Shown piece after piece: positions 7,932 through 13,817 of a stretch of DNA of 64,000 bases; the first letter of the stretch is position 1, and each line of letters begins with the position of its first letter. A program made the translations under genes and the position numbers. The notes below the pieces were generated by a model, which searched no databases, was not told where the DNA came from, and saw nothing but the letters and a program-made list of their open reading frames with translations. The stretch is from Thermogemmata fonticola (GTDB lineage Bacteria > Planctomycetota > Planctomycetia > Gemmatales > Gemmataceae): contig NZ_JACEFB010000019.1 in NCBI RefSeq assembly GCF_013694095.1, positions 1 through 64,000 of the forward strand. Direction: 5' to 3'.

Positions 7932-9374
7932 TTAGTCTTTCCTCTTTTCCCTGTCCTCCTTCGGAGCTGAATCTTTGTCACGGAGTCGAGGTTGTAATTG
8001 CTGGTTCTTCAAGCCCGGAAGCCCAATTTGCTGGAGCAATTCCTTGATCACGGGCCGGTATTTTTCGGGGACTTGGTCCAGCTTGTCCGCTTCCACTTTG
8101 TTGTCCCCATCGATGATGAGGATTTTTTCGATGGGTTTGGAGTCGTTCTGCGAGCCGGTGATGGTGTATTGAACGCCATCATCCACGGCCTTGATGGTGA
8201 ACTGTCCGTTCAAATACGTGATGGAAACACTGCGGGCTTTGCCACCGCCTGGCAGGGGGAAAGCTGGGTCCGGGAAGAGGGGGAATCTCTCGAAATCGAA
8301 ACCCGGCTCGATACCGCCCCGCCGTAGATCGGGAATGCGAGGACGCGGCCGATCTTCCCGCTTGATCTCTGGCAAGGTGATATCTTTCAGTTCCACGCGC
8401 TTGCCTTTGCGTAGGACTACCGCGGTGACTTTTTCCCCAGCCTTGATGGTTTGAACCAACCGGGCGAAGGCTTCGGGGTCATCCGGGACTGGCTTACCGG
8501 CGAATTCCAGCACAATGTCATGGACTTTGAAGCCCGCTTTTTCCGCCGGTGTGTCGGGGAGAACGTCCGTCACGAGAATGCCCCGGTCCGGCTCCAGCCC
8601 CAACTGCTCGGCCAAGGCTTCCGGAATCCGTTGCATGCGGATGCCCAGACGGGGGCGGTCTCCCGGCGCGGGGAAGAAGGGGAACAGGTCGTCTCCCAAT
8701 CCTGGGCCGACAAGAACACGGGGTTGGCCGATGGCTTGGAGCATCAGTTGTGTCGCTTCTTCCAGTTTGCGGATCGCTTCGGGGTCATTGGGATTTTCCA
8801 AAAGTTGGCGGAAGGCTTCCTCCCGTAGTTTCTGCGCTTTGTCGAACAGCTCCCGATCAATGCCTGGGATGTTGCCCGGTAAACGAGGCAGGACCAAGCC
8901 TGGGGGCATTATCACCCCTCCGTCCCCTGGCGGGAACAGAGGTCGACCGGGGCGATCCCGCGGCGGATCCAGGGGACGCACGGACGGACGCTCGGCTTGT
9001 AAAGTCCGGCCAATGAGCTGCTTTTCGACAGCTTCCAACTCCTTGCGGATGGCATCGACATTTTCCCCTTTGCGAGCCGCTGCTTCCACAGCTTCCCGTA
9101 AAGCTAGTAACTCCTTCGGGGGATTGGTTTGATCCGGTGCAATCTTCAATCCTTGCTGTAACGCCTTTTCCAAGTTCTGAAGTGCCTCTTGAATCTCTGT
9201 GACATTCACGCCGCGCTTGTCCGCCATCTGCACGGCATCCCGCAAGTCTGCTAATACCGCTGCTTTCGGCTCGTCCGCGGTGGACCAGGCGACACCCCAG
9301 CCGAGCAGGAGCGCCGCGCAACTTACCACCATCATTGCCGCTAGCCAACGTTGGACGTATTGCCTGTTCATCAT
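7932..9374 (-). CDS. Secreted coiled-coil/PDZ-domain protein
   Basis: The product is 480 residues from the second of two close ATGs (9374), which has AGGAGG at ideal spacing; the ATG at 9380 sits one base from it. A signal peptide (WLAAMMVVSCAALLLGWGVAWS) leads into helical, charged repeats at about 35-125 (ALREAVEAAARKGENVDAIRK and a similar earlier unit), a Pro-rich linker, another helical stretch, and one PDZ domain at about 240-330 (RPRLGIRM...GILVTDVLPDTPAEKAGFKVHDIVLEFAGKPV). No protease domain is attached, so it is not a DegP-type enzyme; the PDZ may bind C-termini of periplasmic proteins. The C-terminal part has a short domain with ITYLNGQFTIK and a highly charged tail. Confidence 0.85.
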   Translation of the reverse strand: MMNRQYVQRWLAAMMVVSCAALLLGWGVAWSTADEPKAAVLADLRDAVQMADKRGVNVTEIQEALQNLEKALQQGLKIAPDQTNPPKELLALREAVEAAARKGENVDAIRKELEAVEKQLIGRTLQAERPSVRPLDPPRDRPGRPLFPPGDGGVIMPPGLVLPRLPGNIPGIDRELFDKAQKLREEAFRQLLENPNDPEAIRKLEEATQLMLQAIGQPRVLVGPGLGDDLFPFFPAPGDRPRLGIRMQRIPEALAEQLGLEPDRGILVTDVLPDTPAEKAGFKVHDIVLEFAGKPVPDDPEAFARLVQTIKAGEKVTAVVLRKGKRVELKDITLPEIKREDRPRPRIPDLRRGGIEPGFDFERFPLFPDPAFPLPGGGKARSVSITYLNGQFTIKAVDDGVQYTITGSQNDSKPIEKILIIDGDNKVEADKLDQVPEKYRPVIKELLQQIGLPGLKNQQLQPRLRDKDSAPKEDREKRKD

Positions 9375-9912
9375 GTCCATGCCTCCTCTTCTACTGTTCC
9401 CACCGGTGCGATTCCCTTCGCCACTTGTATTAGATACGACGAGAGAATGCAACGTTTCGTTGGTCACAACTTCTAATTCTTGCGCAAAATCTTACCTTTT
9501 CCCTTATTGTCCATGTGGGGATACACTCGTGTCAACCGGAGGGATTGTGCAGGCAATAACATTATGCCAACTCCAGGTGTCCAAATAATCAGGTGCTGAG
9601 GGAGTGGGCCTGGATTGGGTGTGAGGATTCAGTGAGGACGAGCGTTCTTGAGTTATACGGATTGACTTTTCTCAGGAGGTGTGCTTGTGCGCTAGCTGAG
9701 GAGTCTTGACGCAAGGGCAGGGTATTTCCATGCTCGGAAGCGGACACCTGCGTTGAGTACTACTTATGGGCATGGGATTGATTGAGGGAAGCGATAGGAT
9801 GGATTGGAAGAGGGAGCGAATGAGGCCGCTGGTTGGCGGATGCTTGTGACGAGAGCGACAAGGAAGCTATAATTGTCTGCACGATGAGGTAATAAAAGGC
9901 CAGGGAGGGAGC
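9375..9912. other. Divergent intergenic region
   Basis: The 538-base spacer separates the PDZ gene (minus) from the PAS-GAF-receiver gene (plus). I find no convincing ORF or RNA. A purine-rich stretch at about 9780-9835 (gattgagggaagcg, gattggaagagggagcg) is weakly repeated. It presumably holds two promoters. Confidence 0.45.
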
Positions 9913-11823
9913 GTGTCAGACGCACCGCGGGTATTGCTGATTGGTCCTGCCCCTGGTTGGGAGCGGGAGATGTGGCCTCAGGCCGCCGTGGAACATGTAC
10001 CGGCAGAAGCGGCGGTGGTGGCCCAGCGTTTGCACGCGGGAAAATATGATGCGGTCATCGCACGCCCGGAAATTCTGACTCCGCTTTTGGAACGCTTCCA
10101 GCGGGATGAACTGATCCTGCAGAATATCGATAAAGGTCTGGCCGTCCTTGATGCTGAGGGGCGCATCCTCTGGGCCAATCCCACTCTGCGGCTTTACACC
10201 CAAGGGGATCCGGTGGGTCGGCCGTTCTTGGAGGCCTTGCAGGCGCGCGTAGCCGCCGTTGGGGACTTTCTGGACCCGCAACGCCGGGCGGAAGCAGATT
10301 GGCATTCCCCCAGCACTTCCCGTTTAGAAGATCCGCTCGGTCCTGCTCGTCAAGGCCGTGTCGTGCATTTGCGGTTGTTCTGCCCCACCTGTAGCGACCA
10401 GCCGTATCTGGAAGCCGACATTCGGCCTGTATTGGGGCCAGATGGCCAGGTCACGCAGTTGGTCGTTCTGCTCCGCAATGTCACGCCGGAAATTGTCCAA
10501 CAGCAGAAGCTCGACGCACTTCATCAAGCCGGACGGGAACTGGCGGGTCTGAGTCCAGAACAGTTGGCGGAAATGGATGTGCGCTCCCGGATTGAGCTAC
10601 TCAAGCAGAATCTCCGCCATTGCATCCACGACCTGCTGCACTACGACACCATTGAGGTCCGCCTCTTGGATCGCAAGACGGGGGAACTGATTCCCCTTTT
10701 GCAAGACGGGATGCTTCCGGAAGCGGCCCATCGCAAACTGTACGCCCGGCCCACAGATAACGGCGTAACTGGTTACGTGGCCTATACAGGCCGGAGTTAC
10801 CTTTGCCCGGATACCACCAAAGACCCGCTTTATCTTCAGGGTGCTCCTGGCGCGCGGAGTTCGATGACAGTGCCTTTGAAGTTTCACGATGAAGTCATCG
10901 GTACGCTCAATGTGGAAAGCCCGCGGGTCAACGGCTTTGGCCCAGAAGACTTGCAATTCACTGAGCTATTCAGTAAGGAGATCGCCGCAGCCCTCCATAC
11001 CCTGGATTTACTCAGCGCCCAGCAGATTTGTACCGCCTCCCAATCCATCGACGCCGTCAACAAAGAGATCGCCTTGCCGCTGGATGAGGTGGTGGCAGGT
11101 GCGAGTGTGCTCCTGGAGCAATTCCAGCCGACCCATCCAGAAGTGGCAGAGCGGTTGCGTAAGATGCGGGCCGCGGCGCGGGCCGTCAAGGAAGGGGTTG
11201 CCCAGGTCGGAAAGAACTTGCTCCTCGGTCCCCTAGCTCCCACCGGCGAAAGCCCGCTGCGCGGACGGCGCTTCCTCGTCATCGACTCCGACGAACAGAT
11301 GCGGCGGCAGGCCCATCTGGTGCTCAGCCGACTGGGAGCGATCGTGGAAACCGCTGCCACTGCGAGCGATGGCTTGGCAATGGCTGCCAGCTCGGATTAC
11401 GACGTCATCTTGCAGGAAGTCAAACCTCCTGATTTGGGCGGCTACGAATGCTATCGCCGCCTTCGGAGCGCCTCACCCCGTGCCCTGATTGCCATGACCA
11501 CGGGCTTCGGGTACGATACCGCTCACTCGATTCTCAAAGCCCGTGCCGATGGTATGAAGCACGTCCTCTACAAACCCTTCCGCCAGGATCAAATCCTGAA
11601 ACTGCTGCCTGACTTGCCTCCACCACTCGCGCCAACCCCTATCTCGCCCGCTGCTCCGGCCTCAACAGAGACCGACACCCCTCCGGCCTCACCCGCTCCT
11701 CCAGCGACCGAAACTTCCATGACGGCATCGAACGCCTTGCCGACTCCCAATCCCAGCCACCTGCCCCCGGCGTCATCCGCTGAGCCACAACCTTCCCCGA
11801 CCGTAACGGCTCCACCCAACTGA
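9913..11823 (+). CDS. PAS-GAF protein with degenerate H-box and pseudo-receiver
   Basis: The start is a GTG with GGGAGGGA just upstream; length is 636 residues. Order of parts: an N-terminal receiver-like stub (1-60), a PAS domain (about 65-190, GLAVLDAEGRILWANPTLRLY), a GAF domain (about 200-365, ending SMTVPLKFHDEVIGTLNVESP), a helical segment resembling a histidine-kinase dimerisation domain (370-440), a receiver domain (450-565) and a Pro/Thr/Ser-rich tail. In the helical segment the H-box reads AVNKEIALPL, with Lys384 where His is expected, and no ATPase domain follows. In the receiver the phospho-acceptor position is Glu502 (VILQEVKPPDLGG), while the acidic pocket (D458, D460), T529/T530 and K554 remain. 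The protein therefore looks like a scaffold or sensor without phosphotransfer chemistry. Nothing beside it identifies its partner. Confidence 0.88.
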   Translation: MSDAPRVLLIGPAPGWEREMWPQAAVEHVPAEAAVVAQRLHAGKYDAVIARPEILTPLLERFQRDELILQNIDKGLAVLDAEGRILWANPTLRLYTQGDPVGRPFLEALQARVAAVGDFLDPQRRAEADWHSPSTSRLEDPLGPARQGRVVHLRLFCPTCSDQPYLEADIRPVLGPDGQVTQLVVLLRNVTPEIVQQQKLDALHQAGRELAGLSPEQLAEMDVRSRIELLKQNLRHCIHDLLHYDTIEVRLLDRKTGELIPLLQDGMLPEAAHRKLYARPTDNGVTGYVAYTGRSYLCPDTTKDPLYLQGAPGARSSMTVPLKFHDEVIGTLNVESPRVNGFGPEDLQFTELFSKEIAAALHTLDLLSAQQICTASQSIDAVNKEIALPLDEVVAGASVLLEQFQPTHPEVAERLRKMRAAARAVKEGVAQVGKNLLLGPLAPTGESPLRGRRFLVIDSDEQMRRQAHLVLSRLGAIVETAATASDGLAMAASSDYDVILQEVKPPDLGGYECYRRLRSASPRALIAMTTGFGYDTAHSILKARADGMKHVLYKPFRQDQILKLLPDLPPPLAPTPISPAAPASTETDTPPASPAPPATETSMTASNALPTPNPSHLPPASSAEPQPSPTVTAPPN

Positions 11824-12096: not shown

Positions 12097-12999
12097 ATGG
12101 CGATCGTGATCCTGGGCAGTTATGACGACCAGCATGCCTGTCATATGTACCACTATCTCAAGGAGCGGTATGCAGCGGATGTGGAACTGGTGGATAGCCG
12201 CTGGTTCCCCACGCAGATGCACATCCACTACGTGCCGGTGAGTCGGGAGGGTTATCTGCGATTGCCGTCGGGCCGACGCTTGGCTTTGGCCGAAGTTCAA
12301 GCGGTCTATTGGCGTTGCTGTTACGGTGCGGCTGTACCTCCGTTGCCGGACCTGGATCAACGGTACATCGCGGAATACGATGCTCAAGGACTGCTCGACA
12401 GCATTCTCAAGGACCTGCCGGCTCGCTGGGTCAATAGTTGGCAGGCTCAACAACTTCATCGCACCAAGCCGGTGCAATTGGCGCGCGTGGCGCAGTTGGG
12501 GGTGGCCATTCCTGCTACGATTGTCACCAATGATCCCGCCCAAGTGAAGCAGTTCGCAGCAGAGCATCCCCGCAGTATTTTCAAGCCAGTGCAGGGGGGC
12601 GCCCATGCCCAGCGCCTGGAACCCCGCCATATGGACGAAGAGCATCTGGCCCATCTCCGTTTGGCCCCGGTAACCCTCCAAGAGGAAGTCCCTGGCACCA
12701 ATGTTCGCGTCTTTGTGGCTGGGAAAGAGGTGCTGGCCTGTGAAATCCGCACCTCGCATCTGGATTACCGGGATGATCCCTGCCCCCTCCTGCTTGTTCA
12801 CCAGCTTCCTCAAGAGATGATCAAGCAGTGCCGTCAGATTGCTGAAGCGCTGGAGTTGCTCTGGACCGGCATCGATTTTCGCCTAACACCGGAGGGACGA
12901 TACGTCTTTCTCGAAGCTAATCCGAGTCCAATGTTTCTAGGATTCGAGCAAGCGACGGGTCTGCCGCTGTCCGAGGCCCTCGCCGCTTTACTTCTCTAA
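12097..12999 (+). CDS. ATP-grasp ligase of graspetide (omega-ester peptide) type
   Basis: This 300-residue protein matches the RimK-like ATP-grasp ligases that cyclise graspetides (MvdC, MvdD and PsnB relatives). Signs of that group: N-terminal VILGSYDDQHACHMY, a DSRWFPTQMHIHY segment near 36-48 like the D-x-x-x-FP stretch of those ligases, EVQAVYWR near 65, NDPAQVKQF near 147, an ATP-binding IFKPVQGG near 164-171, VTLQEEVPGTNVRVFVAG near 193-210, and the Mg-binding end GRYVFLEANPSPMF near 267-280. The usual product of the family is an ester or amide between Thr/Ser/Lys and Asp/Glu side chains of a precursor. The gene faces, across 263 bases, the gene for a protein with six TTxxxxEE motifs, which is the motif cyclised in plesiocin-type peptides. 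Together they form a minimal biosynthetic locus. A RimK-like glutamate ligase is the alternative, less likely given the neighbour. Confidence 0.85.
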   Translation: MAIVILGSYDDQHACHMYHYLKERYAADVELVDSRWFPTQMHIHYVPVSREGYLRLPSGRRLALAEVQAVYWRCCYGAAVPPLPDLDQRYIAEYDAQGLLDSILKDLPARWVNSWQAQQLHRTKPVQLARVAQLGVAIPATIVTNDPAQVKQFAAEHPRSIFKPVQGGAHAQRLEPRHMDEEHLAHLRLAPVTLQEEVPGTNVRVFVAGKEVLACEIRTSHLDYRDDPCPLLLVHQLPQEMIKQCRQIAEALELLWTGIDFRLTPEGRYVFLEANPSPMFLGFEQATGLPLSEALAALLL

Positions 13000-13262
13000 C
13001 TTCAGTTCCCAACGGCAGACGCCTGGTTCCCCGTGCTGCTCGTAGTTCCGGAGGTGGAGGATCGCCTCGTAAAGCGCAAGAAAGCACAGGCTGGGTTACG
13101 TCCCTTGCTTGGCCTAAGAACGTCATACCGTGGGGGAGGAAGAGAAAACAGCGATGAAGGAGGTGCACGTATGTTTCCACCTCACCACGGCCATCGTAGG
13201 GCTAGCTCATGATGGCCGTCTGCCAGCCGGCGTGCTCCCTGGTTTATGACAGGAGTGTGGGA

Positions 13263-13817
13263 TCAACCTTTGCGAGGCGCGGGCGGGTTGCCTTCCTCGC
13301 CGAGTGCTCGAGTCGTTGGTTTGGGAGGGCCATCTTTGGGTTTCGGCGGGGGATTGCCTTCTTCACCCAAGGCCAAGGTGGTACGGGGTGGATTCCCTTC
13401 TTCGCCCAAGGCTTTGGTAGTGGGTCGGCCAGGATCTTTGGGTTTCGGCGGGGGATTGCCTTCCTCACCCAAGGCCAGGGTGGTACGGGGTGGGTTGCCT
13501 TCCTCGCCGAGGGCTAGAGTCGTGGGCTTGGGTTCCGGTTGGGGGTCCGTCGGGTTGGGTTTCGGCGGTGGGTTCCCTTCTTCCTTGAGGGCTAAGGTGG
13601 TGGGAGCAGGTGCTGGTTCCTGCTGGCCCGGCGGATGAGCGGGAGGTGGAACCGCATTGCCAGCCAACGGTAATGCCAACATTCCGGCGGACGCCGCCAA
13701 TAGGCGCTGGAGCCAATCCCGCCGGCTCACGGTTCCCTCAACGGGTCGATTCTCGCCGTTCGCCCCATCCTGACCTTCGCTTGGGGGAAGGATGATCCCA
13801 TCAAACGGATGACGCAT
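13263..13817 (-). CDS. Candidate graspetide precursor: Tat signal plus six TTxxxxEE cores
   Basis: The 184-residue product starts at the ATG at 13817, seven bases from AGGAGG (a GTG two codons upstream overlaps the ribosome site). Residues 1-30 are an acidic, Pro/Gly-containing segment. Residues 31-55 form a twin-arginine signal, SRRDWLQ followed by LLAASAGMLALPLAG and a likely cut after AGNA. The remainder is a Pro/Lys linker studded with six copies of TT-xAL-G/K-EE-GNPP: residues 73-80, 99-106, 112-119, 133-140, 146-153 and 168-175. All six keep both Thr and both Glu, while position 3 varies (L, K, R) and position 6 varies once (K). That pattern equals the TTxxxxEE core of plesiocin-group graspetides, in which the two Thr are esterified to the two Glu. 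The convergent neighbour is the matching ATP-grasp ligase. The alternative is a low-complexity exported protein with no modification. Confidence 0.82.
   Translation of the reverse strand: MRHPFDGIILPPSEGQDGANGENRPVEGTVSRRDWLQRLLAASAGMLALPLAGNAVPPPAHPPGQQEPAPAPTTLALKEEGNPPPKPNPTDPQPEPKPTTLALGEEGNPPRTTLALGEEGNPPPKPKDPGRPTTKALGEEGNPPRTTLALGEEGNPPPKPKDGPPKPTTRALGEEGNPPAPRKG
13320..13526. repeat. 102-bp tandem duplication inside the precursor gene
   Basis: Residues 98-131 and about 132-166 of the precursor are encoded by two adjacent near-copies with a 102-base (34-codon) offset. A 58-base stretch beginning at 13334 recurs at 13436 with two mismatches. Each copy contains two TTxxxxEE cores, so this duplication accounts for cores 2-5. 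Confidence 0.85.

Follow-up and report, generated by a model that had tools for sequence, protein, structure and literature searches.

A probable plesiocin-like graspetide locus with a six-core precursor and a predicted Tat-type signal in the planctomycete Thermogemmata fonticola

TTxxxxEE graspetides are already known from plesiocin, for which TTxxxxEE is the core motif and in which esters join Thr1 to Glu8 and Thr2 to Glu7. Group 2 of the graspetides is the plesiocin group. In Plesiocystis pacifica, plesiocin derives from the PsnA2/PsnB pair, i.e., from a precursor with tandem TTxxxxEE cores and a single ATP-grasp ligase. Precursors of graspetides in general often have Gly-doublet leaders and are usually shorter than the precursor described here. 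Plesiocin is described as tetravalent, with two esters per unit (PMC12291112), and group 2 loci often come with NHLM transporters (PMC13097080). Every graspetide that had been characterised by 2022 is a protease inhibitor, and graspetide leaders have been summarised by the pattern 'Phhx(1,2)h' (PMC8939145).

In fuscimiditide and the graspimiditides (ThfA/ThfB), a short leader tag that contains PF, namely RPFG in ThfA, is the proposed recognition element that directs the ligase ThfB (PMC13003496); ThfB can also cyclise protein-sized inserts and tandem cores (PMC12291112). The resemblance to the present locus lies in these traits, but the cores of that system are stem-loops, an aspartimide is formed via a methyltransferase, and the accessible part of the source describes no export signal. 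The microviridin and AMdnA multi-core systems (MdnB/MdnC, AMdnC) share the ATP-grasp macrocyclase fold and have multiple cores per precursor (PMC5934393), but they differ in the core (TxKxPSD), in the leader (PFFARFL), in the use of two ligases in microviridin, and in their separate clade in the ligase tree. RODEO graspetide groups 34 and 35 often have long precursors with repeating motifs, and group 35 consists of synthetase and precursor only (PMC13097080); the two groups could include the planctomycete family. In a search of the literature that covered mostly open-access main texts, we found no description of planctomycete members, of Tat-type leaders or of the domain fusions presented below; within the same scope, 'graspetide' was never joined with 'planctomycetes', and ALGEEGG, AIGEEGG and AVGEEGG appeared nowhere.

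The window, i.e., the whole stretch of 64,000 nucleotides that was analysed, contains a ligase gene and a precursor gene that together very probably specify a plesiocin-like graspetide, because of the six core motifs, the family and fold of the ligase, and the co-occurrence of ligase and precursor across genomes. A sequence-only reading had placed the two genes and counted six intact motifs (TTLALKEE, three copies of TTLALGEE, TTKALGEE and TTRALGEE); both open reading frames and all six motifs were found where it had located them:

12097-12999, forward strand: graspetide ATP-grasp ligase (macrocyclase), 300 aa (NCBIfam, PDB, AlphaFold/Foldseek, conserved residues)
13263-13817, reverse strand: precursor protein, 184 aa, start ATG at 13817 (open reading frame and homologous precursors in relatives)
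13797-13817, reverse strand: leader tag MRHPFDG, residues 1-7, putative ligase recognition element (conservation, pattern search)
13653-13727, reverse strand: predicted twin-arginine (Tat-type) signal SRRDWLQRLLAASAGMLALPLAGNA, residues 31-55 (RR conservation)
13578-13601, reverse strand: core 1, TTLALKEE, residues 73-80 (motif scan, as for all cores)
13500-13523, reverse strand: core 2, TTLALGEE, residues 99-106
13461-13484, reverse strand: core 3, TTLALGEE, residues 112-119
13398-13421, reverse strand: core 4, TTKALGEE, residues 133-140
13359-13382, reverse strand: core 5, TTLALGEE, residues 146-153
13293-13316, reverse strand: core 6, TTRALGEE, residues 168-175

The mechanically listed reading frame of the precursor starts at a GTG, 6 bases upstream of the ATG at 13817. 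The ATG is preceded by GAGGAGGAG, a ribosome-binding-like site, and it is the better start, yielding the conserved MRHPF N-terminus. Most of the cores lie within TTxALGEEGNPP units, and the linkers are Pro-rich. When the sequence from residue 61 to the end was shuffled 100,000 times, two motifs arose in 5 shuffles and never more than two, against the six observed; chance repetition was therefore rejected as the source of the motifs. Recent DNA duplication was rejected as well, because synonymous codons vary among the repeats (ACC, ACG and ACT for Thr, GAA and GAG for Glu), which argues that the repeats are kept alike at the protein level. Searches of Pfam, NCBIfam and the PDB with the precursors returned no precursor family, the PDB matches being chance Pro-rich ones.

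As judged from its sequence and its predicted structure, the ligase is a graspetide-type ATP-grasp enzyme of the macrocyclase lineage, with a far weaker relation to RimK. Among NCBIfam models, it scored 161.7 bits with TIGR04187 (SAV_5884-type maturase), 101 with MvdD, 92 with MvdC and 45 with rimK_fam. The curated cut-offs of TIGR04187 and rimK_fam, 350 and 143.4 bits respectively, both exceed these scores, and because the former does so by far, we regard the ligase as a divergent member. A phmmer search of the PDB placed PsnB, the plesiocin ligase, at the top (E=3e-31), with RimK at E=0.05. The AlphaFold model (mean pLDDT 94.5), when used as a Foldseek query, likewise retrieved PsnB-precursor complexes first, and PsnB, PruB, Mdn, AMdnB and Cdn ligases filled ranks 1-32, ahead of the first RimK. 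By sequence and by fold, PsnB is the best solved relative, at about 30% identity. Residues K124, K163, R204, R225, D260, E273 and N275 are invariant in an alignment of 30 homologues, and the same residues are found in PsnB in the PDB phmmer alignment. The family motifs that the sequence-only reading had pointed out, DSRWFPTQ and FLEANPSP among them, are all present, and its assignment of the protein to the graspetide ligases is supported by these scores, E-values and fold ranks; the outcome that it had named as refuting, a fall into RimK or another non-graspetide group, did not occur.

A tree of ligases, built by a quick search with SH-aLRT supports only and with a long RimK outgroup branch, places the window ligase inside a planctomycete clade (support 96), outside RimK and among ligases flanked by genes for TTxxxxEE precursors, which is the placement the earlier reading had proposed to check. 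The planctomycete clade is adjoined by one of cyanobacterial and gammaproteobacterial ligases (96) and by the Mdn clade (100), and PsnB falls outside the clades of ligases with HPF-tagged precursors. Relative to PsnB, these HPF-ligase clades group with the Mdn clade, on a branch with SH-aLRT 99 in a tree whose base is not resolved. In addition to this position of its ligase, the window locus differs from that of plesiocin in that its precursor has an HPF tag, a Tat-type signal and six cores on Pro-rich linkers, and in that there is no transporter gene.

Ligase and precursor occur together across genomes. Within the family, 8 of 95 genomes carry the ligase, and exactly these 8 carry the precursor (Fisher p ~8e-12, uncorrected for shared ancestry); across the phylum, 11 of 392 genomes were positive with the precursor profile, and all of them belong to the 21 ligase-positive genomes (p ~5e-16, likewise uncorrected). 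This pairing does not need linkage, because in one genome (G001) about 88 kb separates ligase and precursor. Singulisphaera acidiphila DSM 18658 has a linked pair (L023). Ligase and precursor are also the sole widely recurring genes at 23 planctomycete loci. At these loci no conserved third gene was found, other clusters being antisense ligase frames or present in at most 7 loci, and no protease, transporter or immunity gene recurred with the pair. The convergent order of the two genes, which had been described as atypical, was confirmed. In the named set of planctomycete pairs, 12 are divergent, 5 operonic and 1 convergent, and among planctomycetes the convergent order was seen in this genus only, including the congener G073. 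Upstream of the ligase, at 8028-11619 of the window, a gene with a PDZ-like stretch (recognised by eye) and a PAS/GAF/response-regulator gene lie in an order that is kept in G073.

The precursor has a conserved N-terminal leader element, as is the rule in the graspetide class, namely the HPF of residues 1-7, which is invariant among the aligned precursors and is not an exact fit to the Phhx(1,2)h pattern of PMC8939145. The start-codon pattern M[R/Q]HPF[D/E]G occurred in 7 of the 95 family genomes, all of them ligase-positive, and in none of the 87 ligase-negative ones; the backward control gave 0. Because the element is conserved, is confined to ligase-positive genomes within the family, and has a precedent in RPFG, we infer that HPF is the recognition tag of the ligase. 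In the genome of T. fonticola itself, a search by one start-codon pattern, by the precursor sequence and by the profile found no tagged protein besides the window precursor.

Downstream of this tag lies the putative export signal. Its RR is invariant in the aligned planctomycete precursors, and HPF followed by RR-x-hydrophobic stretch is found in 23 of 23 planctomycete-type leaders versus 0 of 38 cyanobacterial/gammaproteobacterial ones. The setting in the former is mostly [S/T/D/G/P]-R-R-x-hydrophobic, and the Tat pattern (R-R-x-hydrophobic, a hydrophobic stretch and an A-x-A-like cut site) holds over the 23 leaders, with cut sites assigned by eye. Since the window precursor scored 13.3 bits with the Tat model TIGR01409, below the cut-off of 16.7, it is the RR conservation that carries the Tat assignment. 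The genome encodes TatC and, elsewhere than at the locus, one C39-peptidase-like protein. Cyanobacterial and gammaproteobacterial precursors (e.g., L039, L057 and L091) share the HPF tag and the core TTxA[LVI]GEEGG, and their ligases are mostly 38-50% identical; in contrast, these precursors are short and have short leaders with no RR signal, and in 32 of the 38 a G-[G/A/S] doublet is present in residues 25-42, before the cores. A long precursor with predicted export had been judged atypical of described loci; among planctomycetes the arrangement is shared lineage-wide. One of the 23 RR leaders (L031) comes from a metagenome-assembled genome titled Rhizobium sp. Q54; its ligase falls in the planctomycete clade, and the contig is probably a mis-binned planctomycete one.

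When named genomes were scanned with the ligase alignment, 80 loci were obtained from Planctomycetota (Planctomycetia and Phycisphaerae), Cyanobacteria and Gammaproteobacteria. Most have a nearby reading frame that starts M-x(n)-HPF and contains TTxAxGEEG-like cores, and the combination of tag and core is shared from planctomycetes to Cellvibrio. From these, 227 full [T/S]Tx4EE cores were collected, 115 from planctomycetes and 112 from elsewhere. The pattern itself fixes positions 1, 2, 7 and 8, where constancy is not evidence, but among the positions that the strict pattern leaves open, alanine at 4 and glycine at 6 and 9 are nearly constant too. The most variable is position 3 (3.1 bits in planctomycetes), which is L, K or R in the window and is dominated by L, Q, R, Y, K, F and M in relatives. 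In L136 (G199, near 2640859-2641357), an HPF-RR leader is out of frame with the six cores, which reflects a frameshift, a sequencing error or a programmed event.

Our preferred reading, which we hold to be quite probable, is that of a two-gene plesiocin-like graspetide system in which the precursor is bound through its HPF tag, stapled, exported by Tat and, most simply, used as a multi-headed serine-protease inhibitor. That is, the ligase would recognise the N-terminal tag, as its conservation and the RPFG precedent suggest. In the cytoplasm, and at the expense of ATP, Glu side chains would be activated and joined by the ligase to Thr hydroxyls. Each TTxxxxEE core would thereby receive two nested esters, Thr1-Glu8 and Thr2-Glu7 by analogy with plesiocin, and the whole protein as many as 12 (-216 Da), if the pair behaves as its family membership predicts. 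The stapled, compact protein would then leave via Tat, and cleavage of the signal near residue 55, to judge by the conserved RR signal, would remove the tag. Outside the cytoplasm, six stapled loops would be strung on Pro-rich linkers. Inhibition of serine proteases by this product, the weakest step, is the simplest function to propose, because core position 3 is hypervariable and characterised graspetides are protease inhibitors. If the products are inhibitors, the residues that occur at that position (L, K, R, F, Y and Q) would constitute a natural library of multi-specificity inhibitors.

This scheme must be weighed against other explanations of the same genes. The ligase might be a RimK/LysX-like amino-acid ligase, by which the repeat protein would be extended at its Glu side chains or C-terminus, with no cross-linking. 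The two types belong to the same ATP-grasp superfamily, and a weak similarity to RimK is detectable (45 bits with rimK_fam, and E ~1e-15 in Foldseek). However, the solved graspetide macrocyclases all rank above RimK in sequence and in fold, graspetide maturase models score above rimK_fam, and the six window repeats keep their Thr pair just as strictly as their Glu pair, which would be needless for glutamylation; we rejected this explanation as highly improbable. It is no more credible that the precursor is an ordinary Pro-rich, low-complexity secreted protein near an unrelated ATP-grasp gene, given that the two genes co-occur in both genome sets (95 and 392), also where they are not linked, and that tag and core recur from planctomycetes through Cellvibrio. 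What speaks for it is the Pro-rich composition, the convergent instead of operonic order, and the distance of about 88 kb in G001.

Export by Sec instead of Tat, for a gene pair that is otherwise as proposed, appears unlikely to us. It would account for the sub-threshold TIGR01409 match, and the hydrophobic stretches of some signals are not especially low in hydrophobicity (mean Kyte-Doolittle up to ~1.9 over 17 residues); but all 23 planctomycete-type leaders have the RR, and stapling must precede export because it needs ATP, so that the protein to be exported would be compact, which suits Tat. Finally, by the same chemistry, the esters may serve to stiffen a secreted structural or surface protein, for the cell envelope or for domain display, and not to inhibit proteases. 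Fusions in which cores precede and/or follow a whole domain (WD40, 3-keto-disaccharide hydrolase, tandem ferredoxin-like or, as recognised by eye, HEAT/TPR-like) point in this direction, as do the Pro-rich spacers and the lack of a Gly-doublet release signal ahead of the cores in the window precursor. We consider this a serious alternative, though a less probable one: it does not explain why position 3, in a core that is otherwise near-fixed, ranges over residues typical of protease P1, and the window protein itself has no fused domain.

The fusions just mentioned come from relatives, where some planctomycete precursors bear whole domains (WD40, 3-keto-disaccharide hydrolase) and some are encoded far from the ligase. 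In G033, the start-codon pattern search revealed two more tagged proteins on contigs other than that of the ligase: one, of 506 aa, combines an HPF-RR tag and degenerate cores with a WD40 propeller detected by Pfam (L165:1501-3018), and the other has cores, its C-terminal region resembling the one in the precursor linked to the ligase. In G409, too, there is a second precursor, on another contig, and in L078 a 3-keto-disaccharide hydrolase domain is flanked by two core blocks. In L029, L033, L034, L035 and L149, the Tat-type signal is separated from the cores by a conserved domain of about 165 aa, which in its predicted model looks like a tandem ferredoxin-like fold. When this domain was used as the query of a fold search against the PDB, no match below E=0.001 was obtained; since the subtilase (PCSK9) prodomain was listed with probability 0.99 and E=0.03, we retain the reading that the domain may be an inhibitor-I9.

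The attachment of the tag-signal-core region to globular domains in these planctomycetes suggests that parts of larger secreted proteins can be stapled too. Whether the planctomycete enzyme would be a general stapler of Tat-secreted proteins, with a portable M-x-HPF tag marking dispersed substrates (WD40, hydrolase-like and HEAT/TPR-like proteins among them) for ester formation before folded export, is in our estimate an evenly balanced question. If so, graspetides would reach beyond small secreted peptides to Tat-exported, multi-core, multidomain proteins, and a tag of a few residues would tell the ligase which protein to staple; this would be protein-scale modification instead of small-peptide production. 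Direct tests are possible both of the tag, which is HPF here and RPFG in fuscimiditide, and of the link to export.

Additional graspetide-type genes were observed in planctomycetes. The genome G033, which has an HPF-type ligase, also encodes a second ATP-grasp ligase of the microviridin clade (L010, G033:C35). Precursors in L106, L135, L139 and L145 (G243, G138, G255 and G272, respectively) have a second type of leader, with an N-terminus of approximately K[KR][LRF]F[IV]E[EG]LE[QY]R in place of HPF, and carry up to 20 TTxAxGEE cores. In the tree, the ligases of this second leader set in L106-L108 and L110 lie near PsnB, outside the HPF clades.
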